DNA of 64,000 nucleotides from Streptococcus ruminantium (lineage in GTDB: Bacteria; Bacillota; Bacilli; Lactobacillales; Streptococcaceae), in assembly GCF_003609975.1 (NCBI RefSeq), contig NZ_AP018400.1:1996501-2060500 (forward strand), given 5' to 3'. Positions 431 to 14,736 of the stretch are shown one piece after another (position 1 is the first letter of the stretch; each line of letters opens with the position of its first letter). The position numbers and the translations under genes are program-made. The notes beneath the pieces were generated by a model. The model ran no database searches, was not told the DNA's origin, and saw nothing but the letters and a program-made list of their open reading frames with translations.

Positions 431-445
431 GTATAATGATTATAC
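431..445. promoter_or_regulatory. Palindromic -10 region between divergent mazG-like and rarA genes
   Basis: GTATAATGATTATAC is an inverted repeat with a one-base centre, giving a TATAAT on each strand. It lies 25 bases before rarA and 31 before the MazG-like gene, so it can serve as a bidirectional -10. No convincing -35 is visible on the plus strand. Confidence 0.5.
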
Positions 446-469
446 CATAAAAGCACAGAAAGGAAGCCT

Positions 470-1744
470 ATGCCAGCCAATCTCGCCCTTCGCATGCGCC
501 CTAAATCTATTGATGATGTCATCGGTCAAGAACATCTGGTCGGTCCCGGAAAAATCATCCGTCGCATGATAGATGCCAACATGCTGTCATCCATGATTCT
601 CTACGGTCCTCCAGGCATTGGCAAAACCTCAATTGCCTCGGCGATTGCAGGCACAACAAAATACGCCTTTCGGACATTCAATGCCACGACGGATAACCAA
701 AAACGCCTACAGGAAATCGCTGAAGAAGCCAAATTTTCAGGTGGTCTTGTCTTACTTCTGGACGAAATCCATCGCCTCAACAAGACCAAGCAAGATTTTC
801 TTTTACCTCTCTTGGAAAATGGAAATATCATTATGATTGGAGCCACGACAGAAAATCCCTTCTTTGCCATTCTACCTGCCATTCGTAGTCGCGTACAGAT
901 TTTCGAGTTACAGCCCTTGGATACCAGTCATATTCGACAAGCCTTGGAAACAGCTTTGCTAGATACAGAGAGAGGCTTCGCCTTCCCCGTCACCATTGAA
1001 CCAGAAGCTCTAGATTTCCTAGCCAATGCCACCAATGGTGATTTGCGTGCTGCCTACAATTCACTGGAATTAGCCGTTCTATCCACAAAAGAAACAAATG
1101 GCAACCGCCATATTGACCTTGACGCTGTGGAAAATAGCCTACAAAAATCCTATATCAGTATGGATAAGAGTGGGGATGCTCACTATGACATCCTATCCGC
1201 CCTACAAAAATCAATTCGAGGTAGCGATGTCAATGCCAGCCTCCACTATGCTGCCCGCTTGATTGAGGCTGGAGACCTGCCTAGTTTGGCTCGCCGCTTG
1301 ACCGTCATTGCCTATGAAGACATCGGTTTAGCCAACCCAGAAGCGCAGCTCCACACGGTAACAGCCCTTGAAGCAGCACAAAAAATCGGTTTCCCAGAAG
1401 CACGGATTTTGATTGCCAACATTGTCATCGACCTTGCCCTGTCTCCCAAGTCAAATTCCGCCTATCTGGCTATGGATGCAGCTCTAGCTGATTTGCAAAA
1501 AAAGGGACATTTACCAATCCCAAACCACTTGCGGGATGGACACTACGCTGGTAGCAAAGAGTTAGGCAATGCGATTGGCTACCGCTACCCTCATTCCTAT
1601 CCGGAAAAATGGGTCAACCAACAATACCTACCTGATAAGTTACTGACTGCAAACTACTTCACTGCCAACGATACTGGAAAATATGAGCGCGCTTTAGGCA
1701 TGACCCAAGAAAAAATAAAAAATTTGAAAAAAATAAAATCGTAA
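470..1744 (+). CDS. rarA: Replication-associated recombination protein RarA (MgsA/YrvN)
   Basis: 424 residues, the usual length of RarA. AAA+ ATPase: Walker A GPPGIGKT at 46-53, Walker B LLLDEIH around 95-101, sensor-1 region GATTENP near 124-130, then an arginine-finger-type IRSR. The C-terminal half is the RarA tetramerisation/clamp-loader-like region. RarA acts at stalled or damaged replication forks. Start chosen at the ATG preceded by AAAGGAAG. The gene is followed by 6S RNA, the same neighbourhood seen for yrvN in Bacillus. Confidence 0.93.
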   Translation: MPANLALRMRPKSIDDVIGQEHLVGPGKIIRRMIDANMLSSMILYGPPGIGKTSIASAIAGTTKYAFRTFNATTDNQKRLQEIAEEAKFSGGLVLLLDEIHRLNKTKQDFLLPLLENGNIIMIGATTENPFFAILPAIRSRVQIFELQPLDTSHIRQALETALLDTERGFAFPVTIEPEALDFLANATNGDLRAAYNSLELAVLSTKETNGNRHIDLDAVENSLQKSYISMDKSGDAHYDILSALQKSIRGSDVNASLHYAARLIEAGDLPSLARRLTVIAYEDIGLANPEAQLHTVTALEAAQKIGFPEARILIANIVIDLALSPKSNSAYLAMDAALADLQKKGHLPIPNHLRDGHYAGSKELGNAIGYRYPHSYPEKWVNQQYLPDKLLTANYFTANDTGKYERALGMTQEKIKNLKKIKS

Positions 1745-1775
1745 ATCCCTTGATAGAACAGGGATTTAGATTCTC
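1743..1775 (+). terminator. Probable rarA terminator
   Basis: AAATCCCT at 1743-1750 pairs with AGGGATTT at 1760-1767, followed by a T-rich stretch (CTCTTTTG). It lies directly on the rarA stop codon and before the 6S promoter. Confidence 0.6.
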
Positions 1776-1813
1776 TTTTGTTGACATCGCTTACATTTTT
1801 TTGATTTTTCCTC

Positions 1814-1841
1814 TTGATTTTTCCAAAAAATGTGGTAATAT
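1814..1841 (+). promoter_or_regulatory. Promoter of 6S RNA / tRNA-Lys
   Basis: TTGATT at 1814-1819, 16-base spacer, extended -10 TGG-TAATAT with the hexamer at 1836-1841. This would start transcription near 1848, just before the 6S RNA closing stem. Confidence 0.6.
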
Positions 1842-1847
1842 TAAGTT

Positions 1848-2047
1848 AGAAATAAGAACTGCTGTGGTATACGAATTCATACCTATGTGTTGACCGACTA
1901 TTTTTGTATTACTAGGGAGACAAAGATCTTCTGACAGTATGCAAGCTGGCACACCCAGAAGCAACTAAGTCCGAAACGTGTCACCCACCTGCTTTTAGCG
2001 TGCGGGATCAATACAATTCATGGATAACCGGTACCAATACAGCATTT
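1848..2047 (+). ncRNA. ssrS: 6S RNA
   Basis: A roughly 200-nt non-coding stretch with its own promoter. The ends form a closing stem: GCTGT-GGTA near 1860 pairs with TACC-(AAT)-ACAGC near 2031-2043. The large interior is purine/pyrimidine imbalanced, as in the 6S open-promoter-like bubble. It lies directly downstream of rarA and upstream of a tRNA, matching the conserved 6S/yrvN neighbourhood in Firmicutes. 6S RNA binds the housekeeping RNA polymerase holoenzyme. The ends are estimates; no covariance model was run. Confidence 0.75.
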
Positions 2048-2058
2048 TTATTTTCTAT

Positions 2059-2131
2059 CCTTCCTTAGCTCAGCTGGCAGAGCAGCGGACTCTTAATCCG
2101 TGGGTCGTAGGTTCGATCCCTACAGGGAGGA
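2059..2131 (+). tRNA. tRNA-Lys (CTT)
   Basis: 73-nt cloverleaf: acceptor CCTTCCT/AGGGAGG, anticodon stem GCGGA/TCCGT with loop CTCTTAA (anticodon CTT), T-stem GTAGG/CCTAC with loop TTCGATC, discriminator A. CCA is not encoded. It lies about 12 bases after the 6S RNA, so the two may share a transcript. Confidence 0.95.
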
Positions 2132-2147
2132 TTGGTTGATATGTGGG

Positions 2148-2180
2148 AAAGTCTTGTTTTACAAGGCTTTTTCTCATTTT
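2148..2180 (+). terminator. Terminator after tRNA-Lys
   Basis: AAAGTCTTG (2148-2156) pairs with CAAGGCTTT (2162-2170), then TTCTCATTTT. It ends the 6S/tRNA transcript. Confidence 0.75.
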
Positions 2181-2522
2181 ATGATAGATTTTGATCCAGA
2201 TATGGTCGAAAATCTTTTCTTTTAGTCCTAACTTTCTATGTTTTGAGCTCTCTACCTATTCTCATCTTCTCTTTCAACGATGACCAAAAATCTTTTTAAA
2301 GCCGTTTTTATCGTTTTGATTTTGTCTGCCTTATCGCAAAATTTCCTTTCAATTTTTTGGAGTTCCCTATATGACTTATCATTGTCTATCTATCATGTAA
2401 TTCTTTTGTGTTTTTGTTCTGTATCCTATTGTCAAACCTCCCCTCGTAAGCTATCCTATACGTAGAACGCGTTTTCATTCTAGGTACCTGGATAAAATAC
2501 CATTTTAGTTAAAGAGGTTAAT
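2181..2522 (+). other. AT-rich intergenic region before the repeat-protein gene
   Basis: No supported gene. A 61-codon hydrophobic frame (2280-2465) lacks a ribosome site and recognisable family. Close to the next gene, GATAAAATACC near 2490 could be a -10, and AAAGAGG lies 7 bases before the ATG at 2523. Confidence 0.4.
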
Positions 2523-3125
2523 ATGTTTACTATTACTAACAAAAAGTTTTCTGCCCGTATTCTAGCAATGACAGGCGCTCTACTTCTTACCATTTTAGCT
2601 CCATCTGCTAGTGCCGAAGAAAATTATAACGGAGACACTCGCCTAGCTGGCTATCTCTACTCCCGTGGTTTGACTAACAATGACTATGGAAATGAAGAAA
2701 AGCATGACTATAACGGAGACACTCGCCTAGCTGGCTATCTCTACTCCCGTGGTTTGACTAACAATGACTACGGAAATGAAGAAAAGCATGACTACAACGG
2801 AGACACTCGTCTAGCTGGTTACCTTTACTCTCGTGGTTTGACTAACAATGACTATGGAAATGAAGAAAAGCATGACTACAACGGAGACACTCGTCTAGCT
2901 GGCTATCTCTACTCCCGTGGTTTGACTAACAATGACTATGGAAATGAAGAAAAGCATGACTACAACGGAGACACTCGTCTAGCTGGCTATCTCTACTCCC
3001 GTGGTTTGACTAACAATGACTATGGAAATGAAGAAAAGCATGACTATAACGGAGACACTCGCCTAGCTGGCTATCTATACTCTCGTGGTTTGACTAACAA
3101 CAACTACGAATACGGAGACAAATAG
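2523..3125 (+). CDS. Secreted protein of six 28-residue tandem repeats, unknown function
   Basis: 200 residues. Residues 1-31 are a signal peptide with a positive start, hydrophobic core LLLTILAP and an AxA-type cleavage site (SASA before EEN). From residue 35 there are five full copies plus one shortened copy of a 28-residue unit whose core is NGDTRLAGYLYSRGLTNN, ending in the acidic/basic linker YGNEEKHD. The units are almost identical even at DNA level (84-base period), so copy number probably varies between strains. No cysteine, LPXTG anchor or TM segment; it should be released or held by wall affinity. The regular core-plus-charged-linker pattern is also what a multi-copy peptide precursor would look like. 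I do not recognise the repeat. Confidence 0.7.
   Translation: MFTITNKKFSARILAMTGALLLTILAPSASAEENYNGDTRLAGYLYSRGLTNNDYGNEEKHDYNGDTRLAGYLYSRGLTNNDYGNEEKHDYNGDTRLAGYLYSRGLTNNDYGNEEKHDYNGDTRLAGYLYSRGLTNNDYGNEEKHDYNGDTRLAGYLYSRGLTNNDYGNEEKHDYNGDTRLAGYLYSRGLTNNNYEYGDK
2625..3125 (+). repeat. 84-bp coding tandem repeat, 6 copies
   Basis: Units start at 2625, 2709, 2793, 2877, 2961 and 3045 (the last is 78 bases plus the stop). Differences between units are nearly all silent third-base changes, showing recent duplication or gene conversion. Confidence 0.9.
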
Positions 3126-3179
3126 GACTATAGCGGACACACTTGCTTAGCTAGTTGCCTTTGTTAGTGTGGTCTTGAT
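3126..3179 (+). pseudogene. Decayed seventh repeat unit after the stop codon
   Basis: Directly after the stop codon, GACTATAGCGGACACACTTG and the following bases align with the repeat start GACTATAACGGAGACACTCG and continue to match through the GCTAG/GCTGG and GTGG positions. The present stop therefore lies inside an older, longer array, and the last unit has decayed. Confidence 0.7.
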
Positions 3180-3736
3180 CTATCATCGCCACAAATATAA
3201 ACTTATCCATAATAAATAGGAATTCCCTCAAATTTATCAATGATTTTTAGAGTCATTATTCACGTTTTCTACACCTTTTCTGAACTACATAAGATGTGAA
3301 ATGCTTTTGAGATAAAACCATAACAACTCTATTACATTATGGAGTCAGAGAAAAACTAGTTGATAAATGAAACACAGAAACATGTTGACTTGATGCATTT
3401 CAAGAATCCAACATTTTCTGTGTTTTTCATTCTCTTTCAAACCAAGAAGAGATAAAATGACAGTGTAAACATATAGCGAAGCCTATTCCCATGCACATAA
3501 AACAGGATTGGATAGACTCATAAGCTTATCTTCCTACCCCTTATTCCCCAAGCCTTTTTCATAACGTGACCAGCCACTGTTATCCTTTATTCAAGCAGGC
3601 GCAAATCATTTTTTCATCTGGCTTAATTTGACAAATTGCGTTATAATGAAAGGTAGATTCATTTTTACTATCAACTGTTTTTAATAAAAATGAACAAACG
3701 ACTCGGTAAGTACATTTTATACATGAGGAGAAATCC
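3180..3736 (+). other. Long intergenic region before the peptide-island operon
   Basis: No supported gene. It contains the hairpin repeat at 3371-3425. A TATAAT at 3642-3647 has only a poor -35 (a TTGACA at 3628 is too close), so the operon promoter is uncertain. Otherwise nothing recognised. Confidence 0.4.
3371..3425 (+). repeat. Hairpin repeat, copy 1
   Basis: AACACAGAAA at 3371 pairs with TTTCTGTGTT near 3414-3424; the inner bases TTGACTTGATG and TTCAAGAATCCAA also pair in part. A near-identical copy lies at 8021-8076. The two copies flank the operon at 3737-7996. Confidence 0.75.
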
Positions 3737-4192
3737 GTGAATCACTCACAAATCAGAGAAGAACTAGAAGCAGGACGCTCAGTGATTTATGTAACACAGG
3801 GCATCAGCATGCGTCCGCTCTTGTATGATAAACGCCATAAAAAAGCCACACAAATCCGTTTAGAACCCCTCCCAGATCACTCATTAAAAATAGGGGACAT
3901 CCCAATCTTCCAAAAAAAGTCAAACGGTCAACTTGTCCTCCACCGCATCATCCATCAGGATGAGCAGTATTACTACACACGGGGAGATAACTGCCTGCAC
4001 GGGGAGACAGTAGCAAGAGAGCAGGTTTTTGGTTATGTGACCAAAATCTATCGGAAAGGGAAGTGGTTCTCTACAGACCACAAAGGCTATAGGATCTATG
4101 TATCCATCTGGCTACATAGCCTCTGGCTTCGCAAACCCTTCATGTTGCTCCGTCAACAGCTATCACGACTAAAAAGAAAGATTCAAGGGTAA
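3737..4192 (+). CDS. S24/S26-family serine peptidase-like protein
   Basis: 151 residues from a GTG start preceded by GAGGAGAAATCC. It has the signal-peptidase-I fold signature GISMRP (Ser24), then VLHRII with a conserved His, and TRGDN around residue 90. This Ser/His/Asp pattern is that of the S26B (SEC11-like) subgroup rather than the Ser/Lys LepB type. No clear N-terminal membrane anchor; a hydrophobic stretch (YVSIWLHSLW) lies near the C-terminus. Proteins of this kind recur in RiPP gene clusters, often beside PqqD, HPr-kinase-like and nucleotidyltransferase genes. Its likely role here is leader removal or maturation (inference). Its stop overlaps the ABC gene start by one base. Confidence 0.7.
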   Translation: MNHSQIREELEAGRSVIYVTQGISMRPLLYDKRHKKATQIRLEPLPDHSLKIGDIPIFQKKSNGQLVLHRIIHQDEQYYYTRGDNCLHGETVAREQVFGYVTKIYRKGKWFSTDHKGYRIYVSIWLHSLWLRKPFMLLRQQLSRLKRKIQG

Positions 4193-5895
4193 TGAAAGAA
4201 CTACACCACCCACCCATAAAAGATGTTTTTACATGGCTATTTTCTATATTGCCAGTTTCCAAGAAACTGCAAATCGCTTTTCTCTGCCTCTTGGAGCTGA
4301 TTTCCTCTATTTTTTCCGTACTCTTTGTCTTGTATTTTCGCAATATCATTGATGCGGCAGTTGCAAAAAATAGTAACGAACTTTGGTTTTCAGCCTTCAT
4401 GCTCTTATTTATTATAGCAGTGCAAATACTAGCTCACGCATTTCAACGTTATTGGGGGGAAGCAACGAGAGCTGACATTGAAAATCACTTTAAGACTTAT
4501 CTGCTAACAACACTTTTTCAAAGGGAATATCAATCCATTTCCCAAATTCATACGGGCGAATGGCAGACTCGCTTGACTTCTGATACAGGGATTATCTCAC
4601 GAGGAATGGCAACCGTCTTGCCAGGACTGGTCGGTATGGTGAGTCGGCTTGTTGCGATTCTACTAATGCTCAGCCATATTCAACCCCAATTTTTATGGCT
4701 CATCTTTCCAATGGGACTCATCTATCTCTTGATTGGTCTTGGAATGAAGCTAAAACTACGTCGCCTTTATCGCAATATTCAAGAAAAAACGAGCCAATTA
4801 CAGGTTTTCTACAAGGATTATCTCAGCAGTCTCTTAGTGATAAAGACCTTTTCTATTGAAAAAAAGGTTGAAGAGCAAGCTCATGACTACCTAGAACAGC
4901 ATAAAAAAGCCAGACTGGAGCAGACTACTTTTTCAAATATCAATATCACAGCCCTCAGTCTAGTCTTGCAGACAGCCTATATCTTATCAGCCATCTATTG
5001 TGCCTATGGTATCTATACAGGCGCAATCTCCTACGGAGCCTTTGTAGCCATTACACGCTTGGTTGCTCAAGTCAGCCAACCCTTTTCGACTGCAACCAGC
5101 TACATTCCAAGTTTTTACTCAACCTTGGTGAGCTGCGAACGATTGATGGAGGTTAGCCAGATGAATGCTGTACGAGGAGAAGCTAAGTCCTATTCAGAAA
5201 TCGAGGAAGTCTACGAAAAACTTGATGCCATTGTCTTTGAGGAGGCTAGTTTTTCCTACACAGGACGCAATCTCTTTGCCAATCTCCAGCTAGACATTCA
5301 AAAAGGGGACTACATCGCCTTTTCTGGCCCTTCTGGCTGTGGCAAAAGCACCTTGACCAAGCTGATTCTTTCCATCTACGATCTACAAGCAGGGCAGCGC
5401 TTCTTGCGCTTGACAGACGGAAAAACCATCCCATTAGATGCTCGTTTTCATCGCCTATTTGCCTATGTGCCACAGGTTAAGCATTTAATGGTTGGAACAA
5501 TTCGTCAGGTCGTCACCTTTTCAGAAAACCTGTCTGCGGATGAGGAGCGATTACTGTGGCAAGCACTTGAGTTGGCCTGCGCACGAGAATTGGTTGAAAA
5601 TCTTTCACAGGGCTTAGATTTTGTCTTGGGCGAAGACGGCTCAGGCTTGTCTGAAGGACAGTTGCAACGTTTATCCATTGCACGCGCCATCTATTCTCAA
5701 TCACCTATTCTAGTGCTAGATGAATCCACCAGTGCCTTAGATGAGGAGACAGAAAAAGCTATTTTAGAAAATCTCAAGGCAATGACAGATAGGACAATGA
5801 TTATTGTAACCCATAGACCAGCAGCCTTAGGCATCTGCAACAAACAACTCCATTTTTCCGAGTCAGGAGTGGAGTTAAAATACCGAATGAATTAG
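4192..5895 (+). CDS. ABC transporter, fused membrane and ATPase domains
   Basis: 567 residues: an N-terminal six-helix exporter-type membrane domain (about 25-320) and a C-terminal ATPase with Walker A GPSGCGKST, signature LSEGQ (the second G of the usual LSGGQ is E) and Walker B ILVLDEST. There is no N-terminal C39 peptidase domain. It is translationally coupled to the S26-like gene and followed by the nucleotidyltransferase, so it is the probable exporter of the peptides encoded at 10.9-11.6 kb (inference). Confidence 0.8.
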   Translation: MKELHHPPIKDVFTWLFSILPVSKKLQIAFLCLLELISSIFSVLFVLYFRNIIDAAVAKNSNELWFSAFMLLFIIAVQILAHAFQRYWGEATRADIENHFKTYLLTTLFQREYQSISQIHTGEWQTRLTSDTGIISRGMATVLPGLVGMVSRLVAILLMLSHIQPQFLWLIFPMGLIYLLIGLGMKLKLRRLYRNIQEKTSQLQVFYKDYLSSLLVIKTFSIEKKVEEQAHDYLEQHKKARLEQTTFSNINITALSLVLQTAYILSAIYCAYGIYTGAISYGAFVAITRLVAQVSQPFSTATSYIPSFYSTLVSCERLMEVSQMNAVRGEAKSYSEIEEVYEKLDAIVFEEASFSYTGRNLFANLQLDIQKGDYIAFSGPSGCGKSTLTKLILSIYDLQAGQRFLRLTDGKTIPLDARFHRLFAYVPQVKHLMVGTIRQVVTFSENLSADEERLLWQALELACARELVENLSQGLDFVLGEDGSGLSEGQLQRLSIARAIYSQSPILVLDESTSALDEETEKAILENLKAMTDRTMIIVTHRPAALGICNKQLHFSESGVELKYRMN

Positions 5896-5905
5896 AAAGA
5901 AACGT

Positions 5906-7027
5906 ATGTTTTCACAAACACAAGAAGATTTACTCTATTTATTGGCACATTACCTTCAAAAAAAGCCAATCTGTCAGGAGAAAATAGCTCAGATGAACTT
6001 GGAAAAACTTTACAGTTTCTCCAAATTTCACAGCTTGTCCGCTATGGTAGCCATGATATTAGAAGATTCTATTGATCTGCCTCAAGATTTTCAGGAATCC
6101 AAAAATCAAGCTATCCGCCGAGAATTATTATTTGATCATGAACGCCAAAAGATTACCAGATGGTTGTCCCAGGAAGGTATTTGGTACATGGAACTAAAAG
6201 GGATTCACCTAAAGAAATACTATCCTAAGCTGGGGATGCGGGTCATGTCGGATAATGATATTCTCTTTGATGAAACTTTTGAAAAAGAAGTCAGAGAATT
6301 TTTCAAAAAAGAAGGCTACGAATTTATCTATGAAATCAACGTTGATGCCTATATGAAAAAACCAATCTTTCATTTTGAAATGCATCGAACACTAATCGAT
6401 CCACTCATTTCATCACTAGATAAGATCGGAAAAAATTACTATAAAGACATCAAGGAGCGCCTCATTCAAGATCAGGACAATCCTTTCGCTTATCGTTTCT
6501 GTTTGGAAGATTTTTATCTCTACCAACTGATTCATGACTACAAGCACTATTCGGAATCGGGTACCGGTATCCGCAGCCTGGTAGACCTTTTCTTACTCCT
6601 AGAAGCTGAACAAAACAAGATGGATTGGACATATATCCGTCAGGAACTGGAAAAAATTGGCTTGACAAACTTTGAAGAGCAACATAGGTCCTTAGCCTTT
6701 AAGCTATTTGGTTCAGAGGCAGTTCCCTTAAAAGATTTGACAGAGGAAGAAATGAGAGTCCTTTCCTATATGCTCTCATCAGGAACCTATGGCTTAAAGG
6801 ATAACCAGATTATCAACCAATTGGAAAACCATAGTGGCAATTCACTTACCTATTGGAAAGAACAATTCTTTCCACCAGTGGAGCGACTGCGCTTGGTATT
6901 TCCTATCCTACAAAAACATCCCTATCTTCTTCCTTTTATCTATATCTATCGTTGGGTTCCAACCAAGAAAAGGTTGCAAAAATTTTCAAGTATAGTTCGT
7001 ATTATGTCGAGGAAAAAAGAGAAATAA
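5906..7027 (+). CDS. Nucleotidyltransferase family protein (PF14907-like)
   Basis: 373 residues. The central motif YMELKGIHLKKYYP followed by R-x-MSDNDILF matches the family pattern KG-x-x-L-x-x-x-YP...R-x-x-x-DxDxL; the SDND acidic pair would bind metal. This family occurs in lasso peptide and other RiPP clusters, and in capsule loci, where it is thought to transfer a nucleotidyl group, though few are characterised. It follows the ABC gene by 10 bases in one operon. Substrate unknown; modification of the peptide products is an inference from context. Confidence 0.65.
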   Translation: MFSQTQEDLLYLLAHYLQKKPICQEKIAQMNLEKLYSFSKFHSLSAMVAMILEDSIDLPQDFQESKNQAIRRELLFDHERQKITRWLSQEGIWYMELKGIHLKKYYPKLGMRVMSDNDILFDETFEKEVREFFKKEGYEFIYEINVDAYMKKPIFHFEMHRTLIDPLISSLDKIGKNYYKDIKERLIQDQDNPFAYRFCLEDFYLYQLIHDYKHYSESGTGIRSLVDLFLLLEAEQNKMDWTYIRQELEKIGLTNFEEQHRSLAFKLFGSEAVPLKDLTEEEMRVLSYMLSSGTYGLKDNQIINQLENHSGNSLTYWKEQFFPPVERLRLVFPILQKHPYLLPFIYIYRWVPTKKRLQKFSSIVRIMSRKKEK

Positions 7028-7048
7028 CACAGTATAGAAAGAGATGTA

Positions 7049-7996
7049 ATGAAAAAATATTTTTGCTTTACCAATATGCAGGTTATGATCGCTCTGATGA
7101 AGTATAAAAAAGAGGAACCCATGGCCCTCTTTCTCAATCGGAATGTTCGCGGCTATCAAGAACTCGCAGAAAGGATTAACATCCTCTTTCCAGATATTTG
7201 GGTCAAGATCCTGACAGCAGATGTCGTCCAAGCAGAAATGTATTTTGACTGGCTAGAAGATGAAGACCAAATCTACCTCTTTAACGATGCCGATCAGATT
7301 GGTCAAGCCTTTCGAGATAAGCGCTATCCCTACCATCTGATAGAAGACGGTTTAAATTTTCATTATCACCATGCACAGTTGAAAAATCTGACAGATAAGG
7401 ACCCTGTCAACGGATTGTACGGTTCCAGTCCCGTCTGTCTAGATATTGAGATCAATGACCTCAGCAAAATCAAAGACAATACCTATTATGCCCAGTTTCT
7501 GGATAAATTTATCGAAGTTCCTCGTCAAGCTTTATTTGAAAGCCAAGAGGAGGCGCACTTACAAAAGCTTTTTGAACTCTATCAGTTAGAAAATCTAGAG
7601 CTTACCTCGCCATCCTATTTGATACTGACCCAGCCTTTAGCGGAGGACTTTTGGAAGAGTTTTAGAAAGGCAGACAAGAGTCCAGACTACGTAAAGCAGT
7701 ATTATTTTTATTTTAAAATAGCGCAAGAGGCGCAAGAAGCTGGTTACCATGTCTACCTCAAGCCACACCCAAGGGATGACCTTGATTACACAGAAATCCC
7801 GGGTGTTACAGTGCTACCAAGGTATACACCGATGGAAATGCTAGACCTACACCTCTCAAGCTCCTTTGATGTAGTGGCGACACTTATGTCTTCTTGTGTC
7901 GATGGCTTGACAAAGGTCAAAGAAAAAAGAGTAATCTACACAGAAGAAAAGGCAAAACAAGATGCGGCTGGACAAAAGACAGCTTCCACTGTATAA
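7049..7996 (+). CDS. Polysialyltransferase-like glycosyltransferase (PF07388-like)
   Basis: 315 residues. The C-terminal half has the pattern seen in the alpha-2,8-polysialyltransferase/GT52-type superfamily: GYHVYLKPHPRDD near residues 231-243, then PGVTVLPRYTPMEMLDL, and an SS/DVVATLMSS stretch near the donor site. It is last in the plus-strand operon, 21 bases after the nucleotidyltransferase. It could transfer a sugar onto the island's peptides or onto a surface glycan; the donor cannot be told. A hairpin repeat follows 24 bases after the stop. Confidence 0.55.
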   Translation: MKKYFCFTNMQVMIALMKYKKEEPMALFLNRNVRGYQELAERINILFPDIWVKILTADVVQAEMYFDWLEDEDQIYLFNDADQIGQAFRDKRYPYHLIEDGLNFHYHHAQLKNLTDKDPVNGLYGSSPVCLDIEINDLSKIKDNTYYAQFLDKFIEVPRQALFESQEEAHLQKLFELYQLENLELTSPSYLILTQPLAEDFWKSFRKADKSPDYVKQYYFYFKIAQEAQEAGYHVYLKPHPRDDLDYTEIPGVTVLPRYTPMEMLDLHLSSSFDVVATLMSSCVDGLTKVKEKRVIYTEEKAKQDAAGQKTASTV

Positions 7997-8020
7997 AGTA
8001 TCCGCCTAAACAAAATCAAA

Positions 8021-8076
8021 AACACAGAAAATATTGACTTGATGTATTCAAGAATTCAATATTTTCTGTGTTTTTT
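8021..8076 (+). repeat. Hairpin repeat, copy 2 (also possible terminator)
   Basis: AACACAGAAAATATTGA pairs with TTCAATATTTTCTGTGTT, followed by a run of T. It is nearly the same sequence as 3371-3425, in the same orientation. It can terminate the plus-strand operon; together the two copies bracket that operon. Confidence 0.8.
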
Positions 8077-8168
8077 AGCTCACTTTGCAATGGAAGTTTA
8101 TCAAACCAAGTCTACGCTTGACTTTCAAAGAATAACGTTGAAAAGCAGTCCAAGACCCAATCCGAGGC

Positions 8169-8447
8169 TTAATTTGAGTAATTCTCAAGCAAGCCAATCT
8201 CATCCAACTCCTGCAAAAGTTTCCCCAAGTCCTCGGCTGCTTCTTGAGGGCTGACGGTATATTCTTTGCAGAGAATACCTACCAACTCCTCTTTGCTGAT
8301 GTCAGACTGAAGCTTCTCTAAAATAAAATGAGTAGTCGCATTGTAACGGATCATGCCATTAAATGTTTCTGCTAAGTCTCCCATGGTGATACCGATATAT
8401 TCATCATCACGGTCATGATGTAGTAGGATTCCTTCTTTTAGTTTCAT
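8169..8447 (-). CDS. PqqD-like peptide chaperone (RiPP recognition element)
   Basis: 92 residues with the PqqD-fold pattern: an N-terminal beta region (EYIGITMGDLAETFNGMIRYN), then NATTHFILEKLQ and helices ending LLQELDEIGLLE. PqqD domains bind the leader peptides of RiPP precursors, including lasso precursors whose leaders carry YxxPxL-type motifs. The four peptides at 10.9-11.6 kb carry YKKPEF, a fair match to such a motif. Start preceded by AGGAGAAACAG. It is the last gene of a three-gene minus-strand operon. Confidence 0.75.
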   Translation of the reverse strand: MKLKEGILLHHDRDDEYIGITMGDLAETFNGMIRYNATTHFILEKLQSDISKEELVGILCKEYTVSPQEAAEDLGKLLQELDEIGLLENYSN

Positions 8448-8482
8448 CTGTTTCTCCTATGGTAATAAGTTCGTTGATAATG

Positions 8483-9247
8483 TTATGATTTCATCTGCTG
8501 GTAAATCAAATCAACAGCCTCTGTTGAAATGGTACAAGTCAGTTGATAGATGGGTAGCTGACTCACCTTCTGCAACAAAGATAAGGTCTTTTGCAGTTGC
8601 GTGACCGACTGTAGAGGACGGTAAGTTTGAGTTAGGAGTCGATCAAAAGCGGCTGTTTCTGATAATTGTTCGACCACATTCTCCGATCCTTGCTTTAGAA
8701 AACAGATCGACTGCAAGGGAGCACAGCCATTGTAAGATCGCCTATGCTTTCCGTCCCAAGGTGTACCGTAAATCCGGATGTGATCGTCAGTAATGAACAA
8801 CAAAGGCTTGTCATCATTCAAGATACGTGCCCTATCACCAAAGACCTGAAGCCAGAGTTGGCTGTGAGTAGATTTTCCTGTCCCACTTGGTGCCGTAAAT
8901 AGGTAGGCTTTGTCATCTACCACCACTGTTGAACCATGGACGAGCAGTCGATTATGGGCGGGTAACTCTTCACAAATCAAGCGATAGAGGGCGATTTGTT
9001 CCAAATAGTTTCCCGAAAAATGCCGCGCCTCCTCACCACCTTTCATCCGCTCAAAATCAATATCCTTTTGTTGCACTTCGATGGTAAGGTCGGGTTCGTC
9101 ATCTGTCAGATAATCTTTGCAAAATGTCCGTGTCGAAGCAAAGCGACAGATTACCCGAATCACCAACTCTGCTAGACGAATAGTAAATATTTCCACTTTC
9201 TCTTCCTTTTCTTGTTCATCACTGTAAGGATCTGTCAGATAGGCCAA
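8483..9247 (-). CDS. HPr kinase-like protein (RiPP-cluster kinase family)
   Basis: 254 residues. The P-loop APSGTGKSTHS lies near residues 118-128, the HprK-type NDDKPLL near 158, and YGTPWDGKHRR follows. This set is shared with HPr kinase C-domains and with precursor kinases of paeninodin-type lasso clusters, which phosphorylate the precursor C-terminus. No DRTR-type HprK N-domain is present, so it is not the cell's HPr kinase. The only usable start is TTG at 9247 after AGGA; no in-frame ATG lies upstream before a stop at about 9306. The product could act on peptides such as the second and third in the array, which end in Ser and Thr (inference). Confidence 0.72.
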   Translation of the reverse strand: MAYLTDPYSDEQEKEEKVEIFTIRLAELVIRVICRFASTRTFCKDYLTDDEPDLTIEVQQKDIDFERMKGGEEARHFSGNYLEQIALYRLICEELPAHNRLLVHGSTVVVDDKAYLFTAPSGTGKSTHSQLWLQVFGDRARILNDDKPLLFITDDHIRIYGTPWDGKHRRSYNGCAPLQSICFLKQGSENVVEQLSETAAFDRLLTQTYRPLQSVTQLQKTLSLLQKVSQLPIYQLTCTISTEAVDLIYQQMKS

Positions 9248-9304
9248 TCCTGTCTTTAACGAAATAAATCCGAATATATCAGGAACGCTACTTCTGAGCT
9301 GTCG

Positions 9305-10495
9305 TTAACTGATTTGAACGATTTTCATGGTATCTAGATAGGCAACAAAATCAAACAAGTCTTGTCTTCCCCATTCTTCTTCAATTCCAAAAGCTTGGCT
9401 ATAGGCTTTGATAACCTCTTGGATGGAGCCTTTTTCGTGGATGAGGGTCCAAAGTAAGTAGCTAGTATCGTTTAATTCAATGTAGCCAGGAACCTTTTCT
9501 TTGATTTCATCCAAAGGGATAGCAATATAGGCTTCCTTCACCTGATTGGTGATAAAGGTGCCTAAAATTCGGATAGTGTCATAATCTTGTGGTCGAATCT
9601 CCACAGCTTGAATCGCCTTTACATAGTGGATGGAACCGAGTTCTGGGGATACTTTATCATGCTTGAAAAAGAAAGGGGGGATATTCTTCCACTCTGTCTT
9701 GTAAAAAGCAGGCTCATCCTTACTCAAAACCCCAGCATTATGGAGAATCTTATAGTCATTCCATTCGTTTGCAGGACGAACAGGCCACGAAAAGTTCAAC
9801 TCAGTAGAGGTGTGTACAGTGATACCGTATTTTGGAGCCATCCAGGCTAAGCACCACATATCTGTCAGCCATTTTCCATACCTATCTAGCTTTTCTTCTT
9901 CCTCTAAAGGCAATTGGAGCTTCTCCATCGTCAACAGAAAATCGTAAATCCGCTCACATTGGACATACATTTCGTGAAAAAAAGCTGCTGTCGGCTGAGC
10001 AAGCAGCCACTGAGCACCAGCAGGACTGGTTTCTGTCCATTCTAGCTCTTCGTCTGTTACATTCAAAATGGTCTGTAATCCCTGTAGGTAGAAAGGATGT
10101 TTTGAGCGCAAGAAACTTGCCTTGACAGTGGGGCTATGAGCTCCGTACCACTGGTGAGCACTCACCGGAATCTTATCAAAATCGACCATCTCCCTAAAGA
10201 TAATATCTGTATCAATATAGAAGAAAGTCTCTTTTTCCATGTGGGGATATTTTTTCAAAAATTGATACCAGAGGTAGGGGCGAATCGAGGTTGGGTATTG
10301 ATGGTTGGGACGATCATCCTCAAAGTAATGGTAAGTAATGCCGTACTTTTCTTGGAGGTAGGGTCCCATGTCCTTGTCTTCACCGTACAGTAAAAAGATG
10401 ACATCGTAGGAACCATGGGTCTGAAGATTGGTCAGTAGTACCTCACTCTCCCAACGGTAGCGGAGATTTGCCCGTGTGCAGGTGATAAAATACAT
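9305..10495 (-). CDS. Glycosyltransferase-like protein with C-terminal PqqD-like domain
   Basis: 396 residues. The N-terminal 290 or so look like a GT-A glycosyltransferase: YFITCTRANLRYRWESEVL at the nucleotide-binding edge, the metal-binding FYIDTDIIF around residue 90, then an acceptor-side region rich in aromatic residues. Residues about 315-395 (PGYIELNDTSYLLWTLI ... LFDFVAYLDTMKIV) repeat the PqqD pattern of the neighbouring small gene. A glycosyltransferase joined to a leader-binding domain points to glycosylation of the leader-bearing peptides encoded divergently 385 bases away. It heads the minus-strand operon; the start is preceded by GAAAGAGAG. Confidence 0.6.
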   Translation of the reverse strand: MYFITCTRANLRYRWESEVLLTNLQTHGSYDVIFLLYGEDKDMGPYLQEKYGITYHYFEDDRPNHQYPTSIRPYLWYQFLKKYPHMEKETFFYIDTDIIFREMVDFDKIPVSAHQWYGAHSPTVKASFLRSKHPFYLQGLQTILNVTDEELEWTETSPAGAQWLLAQPTAAFFHEMYVQCERIYDFLLTMEKLQLPLEEEEKLDRYGKWLTDMWCLAWMAPKYGITVHTSTELNFSWPVRPANEWNDYKILHNAGVLSKDEPAFYKTEWKNIPPFFFKHDKVSPELGSIHYVKAIQAVEIRPQDYDTIRILGTFITNQVKEAYIAIPLDEIKEKVPGYIELNDTSYLLWTLIHEKGSIQEVIKAYSQAFGIEEEWGRQDLFDFVAYLDTMKIVQIS

Positions 10496-10606
10496 CGTTT
10501 TCTCTCTTTCTAGTCAGCTTGACTTCCATTATATAAAAAAATGTACCTAAATTCAAGCTAGATAGAGACAGAGAGCTACTTTTTTACTAATTTAGCCCAG
10601 TATCTA
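10496..10606. other. Divergent intergenic region between glycosyltransferase and peptide array
   Basis: AT-rich spacer holding the upstream region of the minus-strand operon and leading to the array promoter at 10607. No further feature recognised. Confidence 0.4.
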
Positions 10607-10635
10607 TTGACAAGATAGGGTTTCTGTGATAGAAT
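10607..10635 (+). promoter_or_regulatory. Promoter of the peptide array
   Basis: TTGACA at 10607-10612, spacer of exactly 17, TAGAAT at 10630-10635. It reads into the decayed copy and then the first intact peptide gene. Confidence 0.7.
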
Positions 10636-10654
10636 CGCTACAGATTATTATGAG

Positions 10655-10770
10655 GAAGTAGTACGTCAAGAGAGTACAGGAAGTCTGAGTTTAAGAGGGT
10701 TATTTCGGGGAGTAAAGGATGCAATTCCTACTTCTTTAATGAACTTAAAACTCCAGCACTTCCAGCCAAA
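10655..10770 (+). pseudogene. Decayed copy of the island peptide gene
   Basis: GTACAGGAAGTCTGAGTTTA, then AGAGGGTTATTT, GATGCAATTCCTACTTCTTT and ACTCCAGCACTTCCAGCC align in order with the intact genes (ATACAAAAAGCCTGAGTTTA, ACGGTTGTTTTT, GACGTGATTACAACTTC, ACTCCAGCACCTCC). The start codon is lost and the frame broken. Its promoter is still the best in the array. Confidence 0.65.
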
Positions 10771-10879
10771 AAACATCACCATTGCAGTGTAGACGTACGT
10801 TACTAGCCCAAGGAGTTTATTAGCTCCCCCTTGAAAAGTAGGGAGAGATGATAAAAAACACTATCGGAAAGGAGCTATC

Positions 10880-10996
10880 ATGGTAAAAGAATACAAAAAG
10901 CCTGAGTTTAAGACGGTTGTTTTTGAAGCAGAAGACGTGATTACAACTTCAAACGGCGTTGCAACTCCAGCACCTCCAACAGAAGACATAGATTAG
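10880..10996 (+). CDS. Island peptide 1 (38 aa), putative RiPP precursor
   Basis: ATG after AAAGGAGCTATC. Residues 1-26 are nearly identical in all four peptides: YKKPEF at 5-10, TVVFEAEDVI, TTS at 22-24. The tail after Gly26 differs: VATPAPPTEDID. A conserved acidic leader with a Y-x-x-P-x-F motif, a break at TTS(N)G and a variable tail is the layout of a RiPP precursor, and a PqqD-like protein is encoded nearby. The tail lacks Cys, so no lanthionine or sactionine ring is possible. Too short for automatic gene calling at usual cut-offs. Confidence 0.75.
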   Translation: MVKEYKKPEFKTVVFEAEDVITTSNGVATPAPPTEDID

Positions 10997-11026
10997 TTTG
11001 AAGAGTTTATAAGAAAGGAGACCAGC

Positions 11027-11152
11027 ATGGTAAAAGAATACAAAAAACCTGAGTTTAAGACGGTTGTTTTTGAAGCAGAGGATGTCATTACTACGTCTAA
11101 CGGTACTGAAACGCCAGCACCGCCAGCAGAGGAAGAGCGTATCCCTTCCTAG
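11027..11152 (+). CDS. Island peptide 2 (41 aa), putative RiPP precursor
   Basis: ATG after AAAGGAGACCAGC, 30 bases downstream of peptide 1. The leader is identical to peptide 1 through the TTSNG break; the tail is TETPAPPAEEERIPS, ending in Ser. A C-terminal Ser is the residue phosphorylated in paeninodin-type lasso precursors (family knowledge), and the HPr-kinase-like gene of this island could act on it (inference). Confidence 0.75.
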   Translation: MVKEYKKPEFKTVVFEAEDVITTSNGTETPAPPAEEERIPS

Positions 11153-11248
11153 GATCTGTTCGACGGTACTATTAGGTTGATAAATATAGTAGTTCACACT
11201 GCTAGAGGATATGACAATATCACGAAACACTACAGAAAGGCGACCAGC

Positions 11249-11368
11249 ATGGTAAAAGCATATAAAAAACCTGAGTTTAAAACGGTTGTTTTTGAGACAG
11301 AAGATGTGATTACGACTTCTGGCGCTGAAACACCAGAACCACTAGAAACAACACCGATGCCAACCTAG
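11249..11368 (+). CDS. Island peptide 3 (39 aa), putative RiPP precursor
   Basis: The true start is the ATG at 11249; a longer in-frame start at 11177 would add residues unlike the other copies. The ribosome site is AAAGGCG. Leader MVKAYKKPEF, then TVVFETEDVITTSG; tail AETPEPLETTPMPT. It has its own upstream block (TTCACA near 11191, weak -10) homologous to that of peptide 4, so the duplicated unit includes promoter plus gene. Confidence 0.72.
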   Translation: MVKAYKKPEFKTVVFETEDVITTSGAETPEPLETTPMPT

Positions 11369-11411
11369 GTGACGCAGTTGGTGGGTACTATTAGTTTGAT
11401 AAACATAGTAG

Positions 11412-11440
11412 TTTACATCGCTAGAGTATTATGATATAAT
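11412..11440 (+). promoter_or_regulatory. Promoter of island peptide 4
   Basis: TTTACA at 11412-11417, 17-base spacer, perfect TATAAT at 11435-11440. The upstream 60 bases (GGTACTATTAG-TTGATAAA...) repeat the block before peptide 3. Confidence 0.75.
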
Positions 11441-11471
11441 GCTGTAAGACATTAAGGAAAGGAGACCCACC

Positions 11472-11609
11472 ATGGTAAAGGAATACAAAAAACCTGAGTT
11501 TAAGACAGTTGCCTTCATGTCAGAAGATGTGATTACTACGTCTGGCGGTCTGGCAACTCCAGAACCACCAGTACCACCAGAATCAGATGCTACAAAAGAC
11601 TATGTCTAA
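11472..11609 (+). CDS. Island peptide 4 (45 aa), putative RiPP precursor
   Basis: ATG after AAAGGAGACCCACC. The leader YKKPEFKTV is retained, followed by AFMSEDVITTSGG; the tail LATPEPPVPPESDATKDYV is the longest and most Pro-rich. It is the last gene of the array, followed by a terminator. The most diverged copy with the best individual promoter. Confidence 0.75.
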   Translation: MVKEYKKPEFKTVAFMSEDVITTSGGLATPEPPVPPESDATKDYV

Positions 11610-11697
11610 AATAGTACATTCAGCAGAGATAACAAAATAAGAGTATCTCAACCTTATTATACAAAACATTCAAAAACAAAACATTCTTAACGAAAGT

Positions 11698-11723
11698 GCG
11701 TTCCCAAAACGGGACGCTCTTTT
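11698..11723 (+). terminator. Terminator of the peptide array
   Basis: GCGTTCC (11698-11704) pairs with GGGACGC (11711-11717) around CAAAAC, then TCTTTTTT. Strong factor-independent form. Confidence 0.8.
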
Positions 11724-11860
11724 TTATGACCTTAAAGAGAGGAAAAGTAGTCAAGCAACCGTGGTATAAAACTTGGGAGAATAGTAGGCCGCCCAGCTCC
11801 CACCTCCAGAGTAGTTTGAGGAACCATCATACTAAAAGAAAAAGACCAACCTTGAGCTGA

Positions 11861-11906
11861 ACTGCACCCCAAAAGTTAGAGAATACATCTAACGCTTGGG
11901 GGCAGT
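11861..11906. repeat. Palindrome resembling abutted IS ends
   Basis: ACTGCACCCCAAAAGTTAGA at 11861-11880 and TCTAACGCTTGGGGGCAGT at 11888-11906 are imperfect inverted repeats separated by 7 bases. The arm resembles IS3-group terminal repeats (CTGCxCCCCAA..GTTAGA, from memory). It may be a deletion scar or very small MITE. Confidence 0.45.
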
Positions 11907-12011
11907 ACAAGGAGAAAGTCAGTCCCTTTCATTGTTCCAACTTGGTCTATTGCTACAGTCCATACCTCACGATAGTAGAGTCAGTACTTTCTCACTCACC
12001 GCTTCAGGATT

Positions 12012-13223
12012 TTAAACAACCTCTCCCGTTGCTGTTTCAGAAATCGCCGTAGGATTCGAGGATGTTTTTTCTGTATCAGCTACCATAACACTACTGGGCG
12101 CTTCAGAAATGCTAGTCTGCTTCTGCTTTGGCTTTTCAAGCGGTACAAAAGAGATGACTTTCTCTGCACCACTACCATGTAGTCCAAGACCGACTTCCTT
12201 AGAACCATCCTCTCGTTCTATCACCTGCATGCCTTCGGCTTCAAACCTTCCATCAATCTGAATATCATCAAGATGGGCAGTCGTCTCAGCATCATACGCC
12301 TTAACTGTGATTCCTGTATAATTTGATAAATTGGAATTGTCTGTCTTACTATTCTGAGCAACATACAAGATACCATTATGTTCTACTGCTCCCTGTAGCA
12401 GGCCGATATAATTTAGCTCATCCCGCAGCAGAAATTCCTGTCTACCAGTAGTCAAGTCATGTTTAAATACGATGATATTCGCCCCCTTTTCACGCTCAAT
12501 GGCTGCTGTAGCATGCTTATCAAGACCGACCAGATACAGGATATTGCCATTTGTTGTTGACCGAGCTATCCCACCAATATCAATCCGAGTATTATTATCC
12601 CTCGCATACTGTGCAACCATATCAAGCTGAACAGTGGATACCGCATTTGTATCCGTATTCCAAACATACAGTTTGGTGCCACCTGATGTGATATATTTGA
12701 GATTGCCTAGAGCAAGGATGTCATTGTTATGACCAGTTGCTTTCTTGTAGATTCTATCTATTATTTTTCCTTTCGTATCAAATACAGTAACAGGAGAAGC
12801 TGCATTATCTTGCAATGAATAAAATTTTCCATCTTCGTAAAAAAATGACTGGAATTTTGTATTCCCAAAATCTACCACTTGATTCAACACCACTTGTTGA
12901 CCGCTAGATACCGTACGACCATTTAGAACCTTGCCATTGATCATAACAGGGTTTACAGTTCTTGCTTTTCTACTGTCTGCGGCAACTAGCGAGGAAGGAA
13001 TGGCGAGCATGGATATACATTTTGATGTAAGAAAGATTTTCGTGTTTTTTACAGCAGAATCAGGCTTGTCAATTTTAGAAGTGGTGGAATCAATCTTATC
13101 AGCAAGCAGATTTCCTGATTCACTGCCACTTGGATCATTACATCCTGTTAGGACTGTACAAGCAATGACACAAGCAAGGCAAATCTTCCCCACTTTACGG
13201 TAATTACATTTAAATTTTTTCAT
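12012..13223 (-). CDS. Secreted lipoprotein, beta-propeller-like, unknown function
   Basis: 403 residues from the ATG at 13223, chosen because AAAGGACACAGT precedes it; the ATG 15 bases further up has no ribosome site. The lipobox VLTGC near residue 28 implies a signal-peptidase-II lipoprotein. Residues 100-350 contain repeated short beta strands with VFDTKGKII, KLYVWNTDTN, VFKHDLTTGRQEFLLRD and VKAYDAETT motifs, suggesting a propeller like quinoprotein or SMP-30-type folds. The tail after 355 is Ser/Thr/Glu-rich and low complexity. It is convergent to the peptide array; a role in binding or immunity for the peptides is conceivable but unproven. Confidence 0.6.
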   Translation of the reverse strand: MKKFKCNYRKVGKICLACVIACTVLTGCNDPSGSESGNLLADKIDSTTSKIDKPDSAVKNTKIFLTSKCISMLAIPSSLVAADSRKARTVNPVMINGKVLNGRTVSSGQQVVLNQVVDFGNTKFQSFFYEDGKFYSLQDNAASPVTVFDTKGKIIDRIYKKATGHNNDILALGNLKYITSGGTKLYVWNTDTNAVSTVQLDMVAQYARDNNTRIDIGGIARSTTNGNILYLVGLDKHATAAIEREKGANIIVFKHDLTTGRQEFLLRDELNYIGLLQGAVEHNGILYVAQNSKTDNSNLSNYTGITVKAYDAETTAHLDDIQIDGRFEAEGMQVIEREDGSKEVGLGLHGSGAEKVISFVPLEKPKQKQTSISEAPSSVMVADTEKTSSNPTAISETATGEVV

Positions 13224-13928
13224 ACTGTGTCCTTTCACTAAATATTCTCAATAAAAACAGATAAGCTACTTCCTTCGTCCTCGCATTCTTTTCCTCATGC
13301 TGCAAAAACGAAGAAGTAGCAAAGAAGTATTTGCTTATAAAACCAAAATAAAAGCCACCATCTGCTCGGACGAGACAGATAATGGCATTCCTGTTGTCAA
13401 AAAAGACGACTTGAACTCACAAATCGTCTCACGCAGCAAATTATTCTAAAATACACTCCTATACACTATTCGTCATCAGTTGGAAACTTTTCATTCTTTT
13501 GCATGACGAAAAAACTTACTTCATCCACTCGTCTGTTACTCATGCTCATGTCGTCGCACCACTAGACAGATGGATATACACGTCACCCTCGCTCTCTACT
13601 TGACTCTCTGTAAATCCAGATACTTTCGGATCTACTCGGAAGCTCGTATGACTTACTAGCTTAGTTTTCACTCAGCTCTCACACCTCGTTTACTAACTAA
13701 CCCAAGCATACACTACCAACAAGGGACGTTTGGTGGGGTTCGCACCTTGAAATGGAAAAGACTTGTTTTTTATCCGACAATCCTATATAATGGTATTGGT
13801 TGTTTATGTGGATTGTTGGAGAGTTCTCTCTCCCTTTTCACCTTTTTTAATGTATAGAAGCTATTTAATAATCTGCGGTCTAGCTTTAATAGCTAGAATC
13901 ATGCAAGCAAGAGATTGCCTTTGATTGC
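13224..13928. other. Intergenic region without clear genes
   Basis: Contains an imperfect hairpin (GCTACTTCCTTCGT at 13265 versus ACGAAGAAGTAGC at 13307), a sigma-A promoter at 13763-13791, and shortly after it a hairpin GGAGAG/CTCTCC near 13817-13832 followed by T-rich sequence. The last two could make a short RNA of about 60 nt. Nothing else recognised. Confidence 0.4.
13763..13791 (+). promoter_or_regulatory. Sigma-A type promoter before XRE gene region
   Basis: TTGTTT at 13763-13768, 17-base spacer, TATAAT at 13786-13791. It could drive a short RNA or the 81-codon frame and the XRE gene downstream. Confidence 0.5.
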
Positions 13929-14174
13929 ATGGTTGTAGCCATTAAAAAGTTTTCTATCTGTGGTAAAGTTGGTAGTGTCTTCAACAGTATCCTATCCTTT
14001 ATGAAAAATGTTCCCATGGTAGACTTACACAAAGTTAGAGACTCCTTGCTACGAACTGATATTGGATACTCAGCCGAGGACTACGAGAAACATAAAGACA
14101 GCGTTCCTTACAGTAATCCTGACCGTATATTTTTACTACCGATTGTCTTACATACTACCCAGATTGATTCTTGA
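13929..14174 (+). CDS. Hypothetical 81-residue protein, doubtful
   Basis: Open frame of 81 codons between the promoter at 13763 and the XRE gene. The composition is protein-like (charged middle section DYEKHKDS, hydrophobic LLPIVL near the end), but there is no convincing ribosome site and I recognise no family. It may be a gene fragment. Confidence 0.3.
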   Translation: MVVAIKKFSICGKVGSVFNSILSFMKNVPMVDLHKVRDSLLRTDIGYSAEDYEKHKDSVPYSNPDRIFLLPIVLHTTQIDS

Positions 14175-14254
14175 TAAATCAGATTATATAATCAATTGAT
14201 TACGTTATCAACCATTTTTTCAAAAAAATAATAAATCATTCGGAAAGGCTTATT

Positions 14255-14554: not shown

Positions 14555-14689
14555 TTATTTTCCTCTAGTTTATGGATAGAGGTTTTTCCTTTGTCCAGCA
14601 GGCAAGGTCTGCTTGATTTTCCCTATATTTTCACAGTTTTTACTACAAAAAAGCCGCTAGAACCATGTTCTAACGCCCTTCGTATTTTG

Positions 14690-14716
14690 AGACAGCCCAC
14701 TGGGCTGTTTTTTTCA
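14690..14716. terminator. Terminator between XRE gene and nrdG
   Basis: ACAGCCCACTGGGCTGT followed by seven T on the plus strand; it separates the convergent XRE and nrdG genes. Confidence 0.7.
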
Positions 14717-14736
14717 TCTAACTGCTAATGAGAATC

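Follow-up and report, generated by a model that had tools for sequence, protein, structure and literature searches.

An LPP-type peptide cassette with two candidate sugar-transfer enzymes, one of them sialyltransferase-like, in Streptococcus ruminantium

Gene content

We analysed a window of 64,000 nucleotides (bases 1996501-2060500) of the complete 2.09 Mb genome of Streptococcus ruminantium, which holds an island of genes typical of ribosomally synthesised and post-translationally modified peptides (RiPPs). An operon on the + strand (3737-7996) encodes an S26 peptidase, an ABC exporter, a PF14907 protein and a protein of glycosyltransferase family GT52. It converges with an operon on the - strand (8169-10495), which encodes a PqqD-like RiPP recognition element (RRE), an HprK-like kinase and a glycosyltransferase (GT) fused to a second RRE. 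An array of four peptide genes (10880-11609) is oriented away from this fusion gene. All seven genes of the original prediction proved to be open and in place in the list of open reading frames (ORFs). Taken as a whole, the island is best explained as a cassette of the type described for linear polyphosphorylated peptides (LPP) to which two sugar-transfer steps have been added, an explanation that we moderately favour. The features are as follows.

3737..4192, + strand: S26/SipW-like leader peptidase (LppS-type), GTG start; TIGR02228 at 7.4e-7, below cut-off, and catalytic residues
4192..5895, + strand: ABC exporter of the MsbA/bacteriocin-exporter type (LppD-type); PF00664 at 4.6e-29, PF00005 at 4e-21
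5906..7027, + strand: nucleotidyltransferase-like protein PF14907 (LppN/PsmN-type); Pfam 2.8e-37
7049..7996, + strand: GT52-type sialyltransferase-like protein; PF07922 at 1.2e-15, PF07388 at 9.8e-8
8169..8447, - strand: stand-alone RRE (PqqD-like, LppB-type); PF05402 at 4.2e-11
8483..9247, - strand: HprK-like peptide kinase (LppK-type), PF27840; relatives and catalytic residues
9305..9577, - strand: RRE domain at the glycosyltransferase C-terminus, residues ~307-396; PF05402 at 1.5e-6
9578..10495, - strand: GT-A glycosyltransferase domain, GT8-like, phrog_4417, residues 1-306
10528..10556, - strand: promoter-like site of the GT-HprK-PqqD operon; TTGAAT-17-TATAAT, 10/12
10607..10635, + strand: promoter-like site of the peptide array; TTGACA-17-TAGAAT, 11/12, preceded by TG
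10653..10760, + strand: degenerate fifth precursor copy, end approximate; repeat search (10653-10705) and sequence reading
10880..10996, + strand: precursor peptide 1, 38 aa
11027..11152, + strand: precursor peptide 2, 41 aa
11249..11368, + strand: precursor peptide 3, 39 aa; longer frame in the ORF list, TTG start at 11177
11412..11440, + strand: promoter-like site ahead of precursor 4; TTTACA-17-TATAAT, 11/12
11472..11609, + strand: precursor peptide 4, 45 aa
11698..11717, + strand: terminator-like hairpin behind the array; 7 pairs, 5 of them GC, and a T tract

The two top promoter-like sites of the region (11/12) are those ahead of the array and ahead of the fourth peptide. The total of 18 promoter-like sites was not above the shuffle mean of 19.4, and 10 terminator-like sites were found versus 6.9 in shuffles.

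Precursor peptides

The four short leader-sharing peptides that had been predicted are present, and they are more than chance ORFs. Over leader codons 1-24, pS was 0.51 and pN 0.05 (ratio 0.10; six pairs of the four peptides), and hence the leader is under purifying selection. Genome-wide, the EDVITTS motif occurs four times in the forward orientation, always within the array, and neither in reverse nor in a reversed-pattern control. None of the four tails contains Cys, and no cell-wall anchor motif was seen in the four peptides. Our peptide searches required either YxxP or the motif including its last Ser, and part of the conservation seen at these positions in different loci therefore reflects the search itself.

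The core cassette

The core of the island is an LPP-type RiPP gene set, and core LPP chemistry is very probable in this organism. LPP were described by Popov et al., published 2026, for the lppAKBSDN genes of Paenibacillus alginolyticus (PMC13381572). According to the main text of that paper, the Paenibacillus LPP expressed in B. subtilis is linear, is polyphosphorylated by the HprK-like kinase and is cleaved by the S26-like peptidase. LppK adds several phosphates to Ser3, with up to four seen, LppS did not cleave the leader in vitro when the RRE LppB was absent, and the nucleoside triphosphate (NTP) transferase appeared inactive in B. subtilis (PMC13381572). The genes that define LPP clusters, namely a co-located SpI/S26 peptidase, a discrete RRE, an HprK-like kinase, an NTP transferase and an MsbA-like ABC transporter, are all found in the window; no C39 peptidase domain was among the Pfam matches of the exporter. 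This match to the LPP family supports the original prediction that the peptide is linear, modified by phosphate and/or sugar, and exported.

Neither the S26 protein nor the HprK-like protein had a Pfam match, and their NCBIfam matches were all below cut-off; their assignment is supported by conserved residues. Ser24, His69 and Asp84 of the S26 protein are identical in 65/65 aligned sequences of 130-175 residues, the window's included, and match the catalytic residues S29, H68 and D93 of LppS. The kinase has 3996 relatives at E 0.001, and PF27840 was present in all 120 of these that were listed. Its residues H104, K125, D145 and D146 were kept in 25/25 sequences, in line with the H-K-D-D motif named for lasso peptide kinases (PMC9266682). 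A profile of 16 RREs matched the LppB structure 9x8z (E 0.0024) as well as lasso RREs. In the HMM alignment to 9x8z, Asn36 and Asp73 correspond to N33 and D70 of LppB, which hold the Pro and Tyr of the leader (PMC13381572). No PqqD domains other than the two of the island were found in the genome.

The original prediction also held that a cyclising enzyme is missing. This stands genome-wide for two families: PF13471 protease had no match, and PF00733 cyclase had only one weak match, which is GuaA (GMP synthase). Lan enzymes, YcaO and radical SAM proteins were absent from the Pfam scan of the seven genes, the only search made for them. A lasso peptide is thus ruled out, because neither the transglutaminase-like B2 nor the Asn-synthetase-like C protein is encoded in the genome, and a cyclase elsewhere in the genome is ruled out for the PF13471 and PF00733 families only. 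It is very improbable that the peptides are cyclised or otherwise tailored by an unlinked enzyme. The short and variable tails would allow it, as would the restriction of the Lan, YcaO and radical SAM searches to the island. However, the absence of both cyclase-linked families from a complete genome argues against it, as does the lack of Cys in the tails. Moreover, a search for PF13471 in 50 of 80 related genomes gave weak matches in 10, one of which reached the cut-off, and all were partial.

The RRE-fused glycosyltransferase

As predicted, one glycosyltransferase carries its own PqqD-like domain, with the PF05402 match at its C-terminus. The fused RRE keeps the Asn and Asp equivalent to N33 and D70 of LppB. 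The catalytic part matched no Pfam GT family at E 0.1. Its structure model has a GT-A fold with a DxD motif and a C-terminal His, and according to this model the enzyme is GT8-like; it is related to phage proteins. Models of both glycosyltransferases were compared with known structures by VIA re-ranking of Foldseek results, in which the matches of the fusion mostly cover residues 1-309. These models were informative for both enzymes; searches of solved structures with the GT52 sequence, or with profiles of the GT, the kinase and the GT52 protein, yielded no useful match.

Residues 1-299 of the fusion are matched by phrog_4417 proteins of phages (Enterococcus phiFL, Lactobacillus iLp84 and others), at 31-34% identity among the best 20 of 74 matches. 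Genes of this type adjoin virion structural genes in five of the seven loci read. Two of the phage proteins were scanned and matched phrog_4417 only, with no RRE seen; PHROGs labels their function 'unknown'. In phage phiFL2B (GQ478085.1), gp49 (4001-4909 of the stretch read) is annotated as 'major tail protein' and matches phrog_4417, which we read as a putative glycosyltransferase, while the product of the preceding gene, gp48, matches the PHROGs major tail protein. A GenBank note on ORF095 of MT939241.1 cites homology to WP_155963153.1, a Streptococcus 'PqqD family peptide modification chaperone', which is probably a record of the GT-RRE fusion.

We consider RRE-guided glycosylation of the peptides likely. 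Both glycosyltransferases occur in three loci, those of the window, S. merionis and Cricetibacter osteomyelitidis. Among the 11 precursors of these loci, Thr-Pro lies at Ser+5 in nine, at Ser+4 in one and is lacking in one. In 22 tails from loci without the glycosyltransferases (two of them added by hand from a looser search, and the precursor of the streptococcal genome G161 left out), Thr-Pro occurs anywhere in six and at +4/+5 in two. The Thr codons of the window copies vary (ACT, ACG, ACA, ACT). We give an even chance to the Thr of this fixed Thr-Pro being the acceptor.

The sialyltransferase-like protein and its donor genes

The last gene of the + strand operon had been predicted to encode a polysialyltransferase-like protein. 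A GT52 sialyltransferase is the best reading of it. The protein conserves the D/E-D/E-G and HP motifs, which are described for GT52 sialyltransferases of capsule and lipooligosaccharide (LOS), with Cps8K and Lst named as members (PMC2169525). Its model has the GT-B fold of bacterial sialyltransferases, and the 23 best structural matches are sialyl- or polysialyltransferases. A search for PF06002 (CST-I family) gave no match, which is uninformative since the controls were equally silent. Pfam found no RRE in this protein.

Possible donor genes are present as well. A neuB-neuC-neuD-neuA operon lies near CRISPR-cas genes in the window genome (11630-15678 of the 19.9 kb read there), and the NeuB and NeuC proteins of this operon exceed the NCBIfam cut-offs; no capsule genes were recognised in these 19.9 kb, with five proteins scanned against Pfam. 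Full-length NeuB is found in 12 of 247 genomes of the genus, the window's included. Cricetibacter has neuA and neuB (and, by eye, neuC) near two other GT52 genes. In S. merionis, the sole match to PF02348, a cytidylyltransferase, is encoded inside the cassette, between fusion and kinase. Hence, a synthetase of the CMP-sialate (cytidine monophosphate-sialate) type is encoded in all three GT-bearing genomes. This co-occurrence of donor genes and cassette is suggestive and rests on one cassette lineage. For sialylation of the peptides, we see the chances as evenly balanced.

An unlikely alternative is that the cassette is a plain LPP variant, in which the peptides receive phosphate, and perhaps hexoses from the PF14907 protein and the RRE-fused enzyme, while the GT52 protein adds something else or uses another acceptor. 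This would fit its modest GT52 matches, the unsettled nonulosonate specificity of the cytidylyltransferase and the lack of a detected RRE in the GT52 protein. It is at odds, however, with the conservation of both sialyltransferase motifs, with the structural matches, and with the CMP-sialate-type synthetases, one of which lies within the S. merionis cassette. It also leaves aside that the GT52 gene follows the S26-ABC-PF14907 genes in all three GT-bearing loci.

Another possibility is that both glycosyltransferases have a target at the cell surface, be it the capsule, the wall or a surface protein, and that the peptides are a signal or bacteriocin encoded beside them by chance. Published LPP clusters often lie near capsule loci (PMC13381572), and members of GT52 have been described for capsule and LOS (PMC2169525). 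Yet no capsule genes were recognised by eye among the ORFs of window 1-16000, the fused enzyme carries a leader-type RRE, and a Pasteurellaceae genome carries the cassette as one unit. We therefore regard this possibility as improbable, and prefer the LPP-type cassette with two added sugar-transfer steps.

Distribution and transfer

A kinase-based scan of named genomes, which is no census, found at least 80 related loci. The 80 listed include S. merionis and Cricetibacter, and most of the other 78 are titled Clostridia, Lachnospiraceae, Oscillospiraceae or Ruminococcus, with a few from elsewhere, such as Kandleria and an Alistipes metagenome-assembled genome. The usual gene order among these 78 is kinase-RRE-S26-ABC-PF14907 in one direction (L030, L040, L051 and L052 are examples of exceptions), and several show a partial core set; many of their contigs are short. 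Most of these loci (L009-L086) show no EDVITTS peptide in the fetched stretch, and their precursors may lie elsewhere or bear another motif. A loose similarity cluster of large proteins is present in 26 of the 80 listed loci.

The cassette is not common in streptococci: the kinase occurs in 3 of 247 genomes of the genus and the full-length fusion in two, the third match to the fusion query being a stand-alone RRE only. Besides the three GT-bearing genomes, G161 in this genus has a divergent core cassette without either glycosyltransferase (5553-10058 and 4892 of its locus). It has no GT52 protein and no NeuB, and its PF02348 match (23 bits, in a 471-residue frame) is barely over the cut-off. 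Its likely precursor, MKNTYTSPLVEVVTFDQNDIVVNLATSGETIGEVQLEGDAE, has no Thr-Pro. A tree of 80 kinases groups those of the three GT-bearing cassettes in a single clade (100/100) among Clostridial kinases, in a bootstrap that had not settled, and places the G161 kinase on a long, distant branch.

Cricetibacter osteomyelitidis DSM 28404, labelled Pasteurellaceae, has the whole cassette with six precursor genes. It is flanked by genes for an Fe-S_biosyn protein, a PBP1-type enzyme with a UB2H domain and ribosomal protein L13, and its GC content is 0.36 versus 0.42 in the flanks. At the DNA level, the cassettes of S. merionis and Cricetibacter share 94% identity over ~5.4 kb of the core and 86% over 1.6 kb on the fusion side; the window cassette is 71-72% identical to both. 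The high core identity, the flanking genes and the lower GC of the cassette are most simply explained by transfer of the cassette between phyla. A plasmid origin was rejected, as a plasmid collection gave no near match. The sequence TGAACTGCACCCCAAAAGTTAG, at window ~11858-11920, resembles an IS3-family end; no second copy was found in the window at up to 4 mismatches. Outside the island, window 2523-3125 encodes six near-identical 28-residue repeats (YNGDTRLAGYLYSRGLTNNDYGNEEKHD) behind an apparent signal peptide, with Pfam matches that look spurious.

Proposed mechanism

The genes, catalytic residues, model folds, leader conservation and co-occurrence with donor genes are established here, and phosphorylation and RRE-dependent cleavage have been demonstrated by others in one relative (PMC13381572). 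For this organism, we infer the reactions, the sequence in which they occur and the residues that serve as acceptors. The stand-alone RRE would bind the YxxPxF leader and present the precursor, and the HprK-like kinase would place one or perhaps several phosphates on the conserved Ser of the ITTS motif. Possibly, the PF14907 protein decorates that phosphate, as is thought for PsmN in pseudomycoidin, where phosphate is placed on Ser and hexoses follow, although the review leaves open whether PsmN adds them (PMC9266682). The S26 peptidase would cut near EDVI/TTS, and the ABC transporter would export a product of ~16-24 residues. In this lineage, the GT8-like enzyme could find the same leader through its fused RRE and glycosylate the tail, with the Thr of the fixed Thr-Pro as the most likely acceptor, and the GT52 enzyme would then transfer sialic acid (a nonulosonate) from its CMP form. 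The source of this CMP-sugar could be the neuBCDA operon of the genome or, in S. merionis, the cassette's own cytidylyltransferase. In its most specific form, which we put forward only tentatively, the product would be a sialylated RiPP from a mobile cassette: a phage-type glycosyltransferase, retargeted by the fused RRE, would prime the Thr-Pro of a phosphopeptide, which the GT52 enzyme would cap with sialic acid.

Several observations speak against this interpretation. The window leader, YKKPEFKTVVFEAEDVITTS, differs from the published LPP consensus (YxxPxVLxHQxIxFETxxS, or Px9Fx[T/A]): YxxPxF is present, but F is at P+7 and the conserved end is EDVITTS. We therefore file the cassette as an LPP-type variant outside the published clade. 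The peptides and the full enzyme set also do not always go together, so that the link made in the original prediction holds in part. EDVITTS-type peptides were found near a kinase cassette without either glycosyltransferase in 16 of the 78 other listed loci (20 peptides, pattern search of the fetched stretch), and in two more by a looser search. Furthermore, the 11 and 22 tails compared above are not independent (three genomes; paralogues), and hence the Fisher value of 7e-6 is no true probability and is given no weight. The top structural matches of the GT52 model are enzymes that we take to belong to GT80 and GT38. None of the 50 listed matches is named as a solved GT52 enzyme, even though a crystallised meningococcal GT52 enzyme is mentioned in the literature (PMC4202792). 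Beyond its own lineage, the GT52 protein of the window has as its closest named relative a capsular biosynthesis protein of S. agalactiae, at only ~30% identity. As to the donor, the sialate locus of Cricetibacter encodes two GT52 proteins besides that of the cassette, so the donor genes of this genome also serve another purpose. No NeuB match was found in S. merionis, which would need sialic acid uptake. Both its cytidylyltransferase and the window NeuA best match a PseF model, below cut-off, and the sugar could be another nonulosonate.

The known part of this system is the LPP-type core, and the proposed action of an RRE-steered, phage-type glycosyltransferase and a sialyltransferase-like enzyme on the same peptides looks new. 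Narrow literature searches, which did not cover subscription papers and preprints, found no RiPP described as sialylated, and four strings of the leader motif did not occur in the literature text searched (figures and supplements not covered). A cassette equipped with sugar-transfer enzymes, to which one species adds a CMP-sugar synthetase, is a concrete candidate for the missing chemistry of LPP, with a testable acceptor site. A phage-related glycosyltransferase domain steered by an RRE would also exemplify clearly how new RiPP tailoring steps arise. Sialic acid is the sugar that coats animal cells. If the proposal is true, animal-associated bacteria release short peptides with a host-like sugar, and virion protein glycosylation, RiPP leader recognition and sialic acid metabolism are linked in a system seen in Streptococcus and a Pasteurellaceae genome.

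Comparison with known systems

Among the closest known systems, as far as the published accounts go, is LPP. Both cassettes have the same five enzymes and a precursor, no cyclase, a YxxP leader, a Ser/His/Asp peptidase, variable C-termini and an RRE with the leader-reading Asn and Asp. The window adds an array of four peptides and two glycosyltransferases to the LPP set. The word stems Streptococc-, Clostridi-, Lachnospir- and Ruminococc- are absent from the main text of PMC13381572. Lasso peptide systems of the paeninodin/pseudomycoidin type share the HprK-like kinase and the nucleotidyltransferase with the window, which differs from them in having an S26 peptidase instead of the B2 protease and in lacking the macrolactam cyclase. 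The GT52 protein shares its motifs and, by its model, a sialyltransferase-like GT-B fold with the described capsule and LOS sialyltransferases, but it is encoded in a RiPP operon. Finally, the idea of a glycosyltransferase with a fused RRE is shared with fusions noted by RRE-Finder (PMC7470986) and with fusions of PF00535 (PMC12710340), two papers whose main texts do not contain 'sialyl'. The glycosyltransferase of the window differs from these in that it matched no Pfam GT family at E 0.1 and is GT8-like by its model.

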